Below are positions 15,989 to 38,533 of a stretch of 38,533 bases of DNA, one piece after another. The position numbers and the translations under genes are program-made. The stretch is from Candidatus Yanofskyibacteriota bacterium (GTDB lineage Bacteria; Patescibacteriota; Minisyncoccia; 2-02-FULL-40-12; IGHO2-12-FULL-4): the NCBI GenBank assembly GCA_016181105.1, contig JACOZX010000017.1, positions 1 to 38,533 on the forward strand, in the 5' to 3' direction. How positions within the stretch are numbered: the stretch's first letter is position 1; each line of letters opens with the position of its first letter. A model generated the notes under the pieces. That model made no database searches, was not told where the DNA came from, and saw only the letters and a program-made list of their open reading frames with translations.

Positions 15989-16194
15989 AGTTAGTCTGGC
16001 AAACATTGCTTTTTCCGGACGCTCGCTTTTTTCCGGCGAAAAAGATTGCTCTTTGTAAGCTGTGGATTCGGAAAGAAGACTTTCCGACCAGCTCGCCGCT
16101 TTTTCATCTTATTCTGCTGAATGGGCTGAAAAAGCGGCTCGCGAGCAATCCACAGCTTACAGAGCCTCCAAAAGCAATGTTTGCCAGACTAACT
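15989..16194. repeat. Palindromic element copy A
   Basis: Outer 25-bp perfect inverted repeat agttagtctggcaaacattgctttt/aaaagcaatgtttgccagactaact plus nested inverted repeats (tgtaagctgtggatt/aatccacagcttaca; gccgctttttca/tgaaaaagcggc). Confidence 0.95.
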
Positions 16195-16205
16195 TTACTT
16201 TTACC

Positions 16206-18200
16206 TTGTTTAAACTCACATCAAAATTTAAACCAACCGGTGATCAACCTCAAGCGATTGAGAAGCTTGTAGCTGGCTTAAAATCCGGCTTAAAACATCA
16301 AACGCTTTTAGGCGTAACCGGCTCCGGTAAAACTTTCAGTATAGCCAACGTCATCACCGAAATTAAAAAACCGACTTTGGTTATTTCTCCAAACAAAACT
16401 TTGGCCGCCCAGCTTTATCAAGAGTTTAAAGAATTCTTTCCCCAAAACTCTGTCCACTATTTCGTTAGTTATTATGACTACTACCAGCCGGAGGCCTACA
16501 TACCCCACACCAACACTTACATAGAAAAAGATGCCCGCATCAACGAAGAAATTGACAAACTCCGCCACGCCGCAACTCAAGCCTTATTGACCAGAGATGA
16601 TGTGATTATAGTCGCTTCAGTATCCTGTATCTATAACCTCGGTTCGCCGGAAGAATACAAAAAAATGAGTTTGGAAATTTACGAAGGCCAAAAAATGACC
16701 GGCGCAGAACTGCACAAAAATTTAATCCGACTGCAATACGCCCAAGATATAGAACTTAAAAGAGGCAAATTTAGAAAAACCAGCGAAGAATTTGAGCTGA
16801 TACCGGCAACCGGCGACCGGTTAATAAAAGTTAAAATTTTAAATAATAAAATAAAAAAAATCAGCGTAGCCGAAAATATTGATTTAGAGGCTTTGGATTT
16901 TGGCGATTTGAAATATCACAGGATAATTGAAACAAAAATTTTCCCGGCAAAATACTGGATTGCTCCGCAAAACAAACTTTCTATAGCTTTAAGCAACATT
17001 AAGGCCGAATTGGACAAACACATTAAGAAATTAAAAAAAGACGGCCGAAGCGAAGAAGCTTGGCGGCTGAAAGAGCGCACTGAACTGGACTTGGAAATGA
17101 TTAAGCAAACCGGCTACTGCCACGGCATTGAAAACTACTCTTGCCACCTTGATTTTAGAAGTCCCGGAGATCCGCCCTACACAATGCTGGATTTTTTCAA
17201 AACAAAAAAAGATTTTTTGACCATAATTGACGAGTCGCACATTACCATTCCCCAGATTAGAGGCATGTTTCACGGTGACCATTCAAGAAAATCAACGCTT
17301 ATAGAACACGGCTTCAGATTGCCTTCAGCAATTGATAACCGGCCTTTAAAATTTGAGGAGTTCTCTGAAAGAGTAAATCAGGTAATTTATGTTTCCGCGA
17401 CCCCAAAGACTTTTGAGTTGAAAAAATCGGGTAGGAAAGGTCTGGCCGAACAGTTAGTCAGGCCTACAGGACTTCTTGACCCGACCATTGAGGTATTGCC
17501 GACCGAAGGCCAAATCCCCCACCTCATTTCAGAGATAAAAAAGAGGATAGCCAAAAAACAAAGAGTCTTAGTAACCACTCTGACCAAAAGAATGGCTGAA
17601 GACCTTTCAGAACACTTGGCCAATGAGAAAATCAAAGTTAACTACATACACTCTGAAATTAAAACTTTAAAACGATTAGAGATTATACATGACTTGCGCT
17701 TAGGCAACTATGACGTCATCGTCGGGGTTAATTTGTTAAGAGAAGGCTTAGACCTGCCGGAGGTTTCTTTAATAGCAATTTTAGATGCTGACAAAGAAGG
17801 CTTCTTGCGCAACACAACTACTTTAATCCAAACTATGGGTCGCGCGGCCAGAAACGTTGACGGCCACATTGTGATGTATGCCAACAAAAAAACTAAATCT
17901 ATGGAAGCGGCAACTAAAGAAACTCTGCGCCGCCGAAAAGCGCAGGAAAGATATAATCTGAAAAATAAAATCACACCCACGACAGTTTATAAAGAAATTA
18001 AAAAAAGCGACCTGCCGGCTTCAGCAACACCCAAAGTGATTTACGCCGGCTACGACTTTTCAAAAACATCTGAAGAACTTTCTGTTAAGAAAAAACTGGA
18101 AGAATTGCAAAAAGAAACAAGTAAAGCTATTAAAAAACTGGACTTTGAAAGAGCAATGGTGATTAGGGAGCAGATAAAAGAGCTGAGGAAACTGGTTTAA
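16206..18200 (+). CDS. uvrB: UvrABC system protein B; TTG start at 16206 preferred over the ORF-track GTG at 16062
   Basis: FKPTGDQPQAIEKL, LLGVTGSGKTFSIANVI, YYDYYQPEAYIP, DESHITIPQIRGM, C-terminal UVR motif. Residues 1-44 of the longer ORF are encoded by the palindromic element. Confidence 0.95.
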   Translation: MFKLTSKFKPTGDQPQAIEKLVAGLKSGLKHQTLLGVTGSGKTFSIANVITEIKKPTLVISPNKTLAAQLYQEFKEFFPQNSVHYFVSYYDYYQPEAYIPHTNTYIEKDARINEEIDKLRHAATQALLTRDDVIIVASVSCIYNLGSPEEYKKMSLEIYEGQKMTGAELHKNLIRLQYAQDIELKRGKFRKTSEEFELIPATGDRLIKVKILNNKIKKISVAENIDLEALDFGDLKYHRIIETKIFPAKYWIAPQNKLSIALSNIKAELDKHIKKLKKDGRSEEAWRLKERTELDLEMIKQTGYCHGIENYSCHLDFRSPGDPPYTMLDFFKTKKDFLTIIDESHITIPQIRGMFHGDHSRKSTLIEHGFRLPSAIDNRPLKFEEFSERVNQVIYVSATPKTFELKKSGRKGLAEQLVRPTGLLDPTIEVLPTEGQIPHLISEIKKRIAKKQRVLVTTLTKRMAEDLSEHLANEKIKVNYIHSEIKTLKRLEIIHDLRLGNYDVIVGVNLLREGLDLPEVSLIAILDADKEGFLRNTTTLIQTMGRAARNVDGHIVMYANKKTKSMEAATKETLRRRKAQERYNLKNKITPTTVYKEIKKSDLPASATPKVIYAGYDFSKTSEELSVKKKLEELQKETSKAIKKLDFERAMVIREQIKELRKLV

Positions 18201-18205
18201 AACTT

Positions 18206-18370
18206 CGTCATTATACCTCTTCGGGACTTCAGAATCCCCAGCGAGGATTCTTCATCAGAAAAAGTTGCTCGTCTTGTCAAGAACCCTTCGCTTTAAGAAA
18301 AGCTCCGGGTCGTTGACAAACCGTGCCCCTCGCAACTTTTACTGCCCTCAGAGGCATAATGACTACGTTT
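18206..18370. repeat. Long imperfect palindrome between uvrB and truB
   Basis: Outer arms gtcattatacctct / agaggcataatgac; inner arms aaaagttgc/gcaactttt and ttgtcaagaaccc/gggtcgttgacaa; sub-hairpin agaatccccagcgaggattct. Confidence 0.8.
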
Positions 18371-18379
18371 TTTGTGCCA

Positions 18380-25566: not shown

Positions 25567-25612
25567 ATTTAAAAAGTAGCCCGGCAAATATTGTTTTTTC
25601 CGGACTACCCAC
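25567..25612. repeat. Possible remnant of the palindromic element family
   Basis: tagcccggcaaatattgttttttccgga resembles copy A tagtctggcaaacattgctttttccgga; itself flanked by gtagcccgg/ccggactac. Confidence 0.45.
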
Positions 25613-29630: not shown

Positions 29631-29839
29631 CTTAGTTTGGTGAATAATGCTTTTGTAGGCTCTGTGGGCTGTGGATTGCTCGTGAGTCACTTTTTCAGCC
29701 CATTCGCTGAAAGCGAATAAGATGAAAAAGTGACGAACTGGTCGGAAAGTTTTCTTTCAGAATCCATAGCCCACAAAGAGCGAGTTTCTTCGCTGGAAAG
29801 AAACGAGCGTCCGAAAAAAGCAATATTCACCAAACTAAG
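29631..29839. repeat. Palindromic element copy B (inverted relative to A)
   Basis: Outer arms cttagtttggtgaataatgc / gcaatattcaccaaactaag; core shared with rc of copy A (aggctctgt..gctgtggattgctcg..gag...ctttttcagcccattc). Confidence 0.95.
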
Positions 29840-29846
29840 CGCCTAG

Positions 29847-38451: not shown

Positions 38452-38533
38452 ATCTGACTTAGCGATAATTGCTTTTGTAGGCTCTGCAGGTTGTGGATTG
38501 CTCGCGAGTTACTTTTTCAGCCCATTCGCCGCA
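38452..38533. repeat. Palindromic element copy C, truncated by the window end
   Basis: attgcttttgtaggctctgcaggttgtggattgctcgcgagttactttttcagcccattcgccgca, collinear with copy B. Confidence 0.9.

Follow-up and report, generated by a model that had tools for sequence, protein, structure and literature searches.

Copies of a palindromic element around uvrB

The window, by which we mean the whole stretch of 38,533 nt analysed here, is contig C48 of a genome of 693 kb in 61 contigs (G000) from the Yanofskybacteria, within the Parcubacteria group of Patescibacteria. It contains uvrB (16206-18200, plus strand; Pfam UvrB and helicase domains) and several copies of a large palindromic element. We denote as X the strand of the element that copy B presents on the plus strand, and as Y its complement, and we score matches with two covariance models: R1, built from ten long copies, and R2, a second model for the short form. 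Copy A (15989-16194, X on the minus strand) is a long form with its core at 16008-16175 (R1, 192.9 bits), an outer stem of 25 bp whose arms are 100% complementary and a fold of -113.9 kcal/mol (z -13.2 against shuffles). Copy B (29631-29841, X on the plus strand), likewise a long form with its core at 29649-29821 (R1, 182.6 bits), folds at -99.8 kcal/mol (z -11.0 against shuffles, and z -12.4 when folded as DNA). The two are mutually inverted, and arms of 124 and 74 nt are 84-85% complementary. Copy C (38452-38533, plus strand; R1, 40.1 bits at 38471-38533) consists of the first half only, ended by the contig end. Copy D (18196-18374, minus strand; core 18215-18355; R2, 44.2 bits), a divergent member of the short type with arms AACGTAGTCATTATGCCTC / GAGGTATAATGACGAAGTT and a fold of -77.5 kcal/mol, adjoins the uvrB stop codon, and a relative of the same genus (G001) has an element in the same place. 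A degenerate element end of repeat family D20 (25577-25605, minus strand) matches the Y-left end of copy A at 86% identity. The original prediction had described copies A, B and C, and all three hold up in sequence and nested layout; its count was too low, as it missed copy D and the end at 25577-25605, and the total of about 31 copies in the genome lay outside its view.

Since copy D lies directly 3' of uvrB, the gene is flanked on both sides by elements. The X strand of copy A is the minus strand, so that Y is the sense strand for uvrB, as it also is in copy D. No stop codon interrupts the uvrB frame upstream of the gene as far as a GTG that lies within copy A (16062-16208), and the element could thus add an N-terminal extension; the native start is likely the TTG at 16206. 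Between uvrB and truB, the genomes G000, G001, G003, G004 and G014, which span several genera, have an element, a remnant of one or a different palindrome (loci L210, L213 and L215), and G002 and G005 have none of these.

Family size and distribution

The genomic copies that the original prediction had proposed to collect number at least 31 in the host genome when covariance models are used (about 25 matches with R1, 31 with R2). Within the same order, 28 of 41 sampled genomes have R2 matches and 13 have none, the highest copy number among them being 41, in G014. G000-G002, G014 and G022 are among the genomes rich in the element, and G006, G010, G013, G025 and G033 among those free of it. The reading of sequence covered the stretches surrounding the copies. 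Across 192 genomes of the phylum, a scan of low sensitivity turned up a few members in other families and classes. A match in Clostridia to the DNA pattern is due to chance, no R2 match being present there, and the same pattern found no match in viral contigs. The search of Rfam that had also been proposed gave no family match in the window, and elsewhere only chance-level matches in seven loci (gathering and E-value scans). We found no earlier description of palindromic elements in Patescibacteria or Parcubacteria in the literature outside subscription papers. Copy pairs less than 300 bp apart (C56:3176/3410 and C15:10922/11157 in G000; C11:9889/10060 and C45:3946/4172 in G002) all show one opposed arrangement, with X strands pointing apart, like REP dimers.

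Anatomy of the fold

The element comprises a core of about 103-237 nt with several hairpins, enclosed by a paired outer stem. Read 5' to 3' on X, it begins with the outer stem, GCTTTTG with an internal loop, and stem P2 (...CTGTGGATT), followed by a conserved bulge, GC(A/T)TGGT, and hairpin H2, which in short forms has an asymmetric loop, AGTATAAT...ACT. Then come P2' (AATCCACAG...), GCGAGYGA, and hairpin H1 of about 7 bp, with the loop CGCTGGA and a tandem G·A at its base, before GAACG, CGTCCGGAAAAAGC and the closing arm of the outer stem. Long forms carry an extra hairpin, H3, between TTGC and TGGT, with a conserved internal loop, GCCCAT/ATAAG, and some copies have further nested hairpins. 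A palindrome of about 20 nt (CCTGTCTGCCGACAGGCAGG and a relative) is nested in L037, L040, L042, L044 and L086 (as H4) and in L054 (inside the H1 loop), as if hairpins insert into hairpins. A TATAAT-like motif was considered as a promoter and rejected, since on inspection it has no fitting -35 box and is an internal loop of H2.

The ends are less uniform. A subset ends in AAGC-GTAG ... CGAA-GCTT, with AGCGTA in 12 copies (0.6 expected) and CGAAGC in 20 (0.3 expected). Of 105 copies, 23 have GTAG in the outer flank on the 5' side, mostly at a fixed 8 nt, and most copies do not have it. The paired outer stems are comparable to the inverted termini of MITEs, and the family has 31 copies in the host genome. 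There is no conserved gene inside the copies, nor is there a gene-bearing, full-length parent among the copies extracted.

Covariation and selection on one strand

The original prediction held that differences between copies fall on both sides of stems, as expected if the fold is selected or if the element moves via a folded intermediate. The alignment, which was built from sequence only, displays these differences again: 36 of 41 stem pairs have changed on both sides (153 cells against 56±6 after shuffling), and pairing drops from 81% to at most 48% when partners are slid by one to three columns. The long form behaves alike, with 66 cells against 22±3.5. In three pairs of orthologous copies from two species of one genus, 11 changes are two-sided and 1 is one-sided, while 3 pairs are broken. 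This covariation bears out selection on the fold. The loops are among the most conserved parts, while the stems are rewritten.

Rewriting can affect entire arms. Of 115 core positions compared between copy D and a copy on contig C5, just 1 differs. The outer stems and H2 tips of these two copies are nonetheless unrelated, and each is self-complementary. Near-identical cores with unrelated outer stems also occur in L051/L052 (core score 0.96) and L032/L033 (0.95), and between the orthologous copies D of G000 and G001 the H2 tip and part of the H1 stem have been swapped as blocks. Compensation point by point does not account well for such changes. They may result from copies exchanging hairpin modules by recombination, from cores inserting into hairpins already in place or from fold-back copying; the second is suggested by the L051 site, which in G001 keeps both arms as a simple hairpin.

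To compare the strands, both were folded for 80 copies and isolated mismatches were counted between helices common to both folds, so that the two strands are treated alike. Read on X, 98 of these mismatches are G·T and 30 are A·C (44:15 in outer stems, 54:15 in cores), and 75 of the 80 copies fold more stably as X than as Y. The tandem G·A motif points to X too. Because the copies are related to one another and the model used to collect them was based on X, the p-values are optimistic, but the direction is clear: selection to fold acts on X only. Ordinary mRNA structure is therefore an unlikely source of the fold, as the folding strand is X only, which in gene contexts is mostly antisense.

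Placement and turnover

With genes taken as simple longest reading frames, Y is the sense strand in 41 copies between tandem genes and X in 21 (p=0.015). On the Y-5' side, the distance between stop codon and core is mostly 14-25 nt, which places the stop at the foot of the outer stem. Y itself contains far fewer stop triplets than shuffled sequence (227 against 380±13). An orientation set by the replication strand, as in IS200/IS605-like elements, was also considered: X opposes GC skew in 23 of 35 cases, but where gene direction and GC skew conflict for tandem genes (20-kb windows of G001 and the window), 4 of 4 copies follow the genes, and this explanation was rejected.

Three conserved genes contain a copy that keeps the reading frame, always with Y as the sense strand: a GT4 glycosyltransferase in G000 and in G002, and a UvrD-like helicase in G001. 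Such a copy would add 40-45 residues to the GT4 or UvrD-like protein. In G003, G008, G011 and others the GT4 loop is empty; in G001 and G012 it has taken up other palindrome-like insertions. Insertions of this kind that fall outside the models, again in frame and in the same GT4 and UvrD-like loops, are seen at L149 (G012) and L204 (G003). These loops thus seem to be general landing places. A self-splicing intron is disfavoured, since the intragenic copies do not interrupt the reading frame and it is the antisense strand that folds. Placement at gene 3' ends and in frame supports the MITE/REP-like element that the original prediction had considered.

Occupancy differs between sister species. 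The flanks of 16 copies of the host genome were searched in G001, and 12 sites aligned; the empty-site comparison that the original prediction had envisaged reveals copies present and absent at the same places. Four sites are without the element in G001: at those of copy B, L052 and L046 both core and outer stem are absent, and at L051 the core alone. A different family member occupies the same site at L041, L042, L043, L044, L049 and the copy A site, where G001 retains part of the same copy joined to another one. The same copy is found at two sites (L048/L090 and L054/L094), a truncated remnant only at L033_1501, and at L033_2230 the aligned sequence is unrelated. The empty-site comparisons of these 12 aligned sites show no target-site duplication, though deletions in G001 could hide one. 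Gain and loss are indistinguishable at single sites, and some empty sites could be deletions.

How the elements may spread

We favour, with a probability of roughly two in three, the view that these are short non-autonomous palindromic mobile elements whose X strand folds and which are moved in trans, that is, selfish DNA in the manner of REP, RPE and Ypal repeats. Under this scenario, X would be exposed as a single strand, either as DNA or as an RNA intermediate, and would then fold, and the folded X would be recognised and moved by a protein supplied in trans. Most landing places would be harmful, and the surviving copies may be those at sites where the stop-poor, more weakly folding Y enters the mRNA, either behind a stop codon or in frame. 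Whole blocks of the hairpin arms would be replaced, possibly when copies recombine or through fold-back copying.

It is conceivable, though rather doubtful, that the same data point further, to a class of mobile element that is inherited as a fold and not as a sequence, with fixed loops, with arms and outer stem swapped as self-complementary blocks and maybe with a dedicated enzyme that reads the folded strand or RNA. If true, hairpin arms would be replaceable while the core stays.

Perhaps the copies are instead a multicopy structured non-coding RNA, with X transcribed, mostly antisense, and acting as an RNA, be it cellular or selfish, while DNA spread is secondary. Such an RNA would be in keeping with covariation of an RNA-like kind, with the fixed loops, with the tandem G·A motif and with G·U being tolerated on X only. 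However, folded single-stranded DNA predicts identical signals, no conserved promoter or terminator was noticed around the copies, their outer flanks vary, copies occur inside genes and 13 of the 41 related genomes do without them. On balance, we consider this explanation improbable.

It is also possible that the copies are large REPs moved by the RAYT (Y1) transposases of these genomes. The placement is REP-like (PMC3733652), GTAG stands near the 5' foot in a subset, and Y1 genes are weakly associated with the element, being present in 12 of 17 genomes with at least five copies and in 4 of 13 genomes with none (Fisher p 0.06). However, G014 has 41 copies and no Y1 hit, so that a Y1 transposase is not required in the genome as it stands. 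Moreover, among 14 Y1 loci inspected a copy of the element turned up at a single one, at a distance of about 1.5 kb, and each of the five loci examined for repeats (L217-L221, in G000 and G001) has its own flanking inverted repeats, which differ from gene to gene (e.g. TACAATGGGCATCTTTGCAAGG... at L220) and are likely the cognate REPs of these genes. We therefore judge mobilisation by RAYTs to be quite unlikely, and the Y1/RAYT parent raised in the original prediction is not supported, given the lack of a Y1 hit in G014 and of the element beside the Y1 genes checked. Its remark that no matching transposase is present stands, as no transposase gene with matching ends was found. It had also named a lack of significant covariation or a full-length parent as grounds for abandoning its reading; the covariation is strong, and no parent was seen.

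Other enzymes fare no better as mobilisers. The TnpB zinc ribbon (PF07282), considered for a link to omega RNA, occurs in 0 of 41 genomes. Reverse transcriptase domains are not discriminating, since they are present in 33 of the 41 genomes of the order, many of them free of the element; these domains possibly belong to diversity-generating retroelements.

An element for mRNA 3' ends on the Y strand, a terminator or stabiliser kept for the preceding genes, would explain the tight spacing after stop codons, the bias towards Y as sense strand and the close opposed pairs. We regard it as very unlikely, since Y folds more weakly (A·C in place of G·U), occupancy differs between sister species, X is the sense strand in a third of the tandem copies and copies are found inside reading frames. 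Finally, a purely mutational correction of palindromes by template switching, which would match arms without any selection on the fold, is scarcely credible in spite of the whole-arm block changes between orthologous or near-identical copies, since it would be strand-symmetric (against a G·T:A·C ratio of 98:30) and should erase mismatched internal loops, which are among the most conserved parts, although template switching may still contribute to the rewriting of arms.

The family is also of wider interest. Although these genomes measure only 0.5-1 Mb, a single selfish-looking family attains as many as 41 copies in them and enters conserved genes such as those for a UvrD-like helicase and a glycosyltransferase. 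Its copies offer many natural replicates of how a folded nucleic acid evolves, with hairpins changing in blocks while loops stay fixed, and the strand asymmetry makes it possible to test if palindromic repeats of bacteria are mobile as a folded single strand or through RNA, a question that also arises for RPE-like elements.

Comparison with known palindromic repeats

The element shares with MITEs the terminal inverted repeats, the multiple copies and the lack of a gene inside, but not a target-site duplication, which was not seen here. As in structured RNAs, covariation supports the fold, although no Rfam family matches. Like REP (GTAG) sequences, the copies are palindromic and dispersed, lie near gene 3' ends between tandem and convergent genes, form close opposed pairs and occasionally enter repair genes such as UvrD (PMC3733652); the GTAG tag is confined to a subset of them. 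A REP, however, is one hairpin of 20-40 bp associated with a RAYT gene, whereas the present element is 5-10 times larger, is branched with conserved loops and does not lie beside RAYTs; we do not file it as a REP because of this size and the missing association.

The palindromic repeats of Rickettsia (RPEs) resemble it in size (about 105-150 bp), in being both intergenic and in frame in conserved genes, in residing in reduced genomes and in that their mobilising enzyme is likewise unknown (PMC2229807, PMC10969869). Compared by description, RPEs belong to other bacteria and have the end tag CGTC, as opposed to GTAG in a subset here, and a branched fold, strong covariation and one-strand selection are shown for the present element. 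Ypal/RU-2 of Yersinia and ERIC/RU-1 of enterobacteria are palindromic mobile repeats of 127-168 bp through which reading frames also run, and for Ypal, occupied as well as empty sites are described, with targets that coincide with a dyad symmetry or adjoin one (PMC2229807). The present element differs from both in having no visible target-site duplication, a multi-junction fold and exchangeable hairpins, and no homology is known. It is thus best read as a new family among the bacterial palindromic mobile repeats, distinguished by a branched scaffold whose loops are fixed, by selection that acts on one strand and by hairpins that are exchanged block by block.
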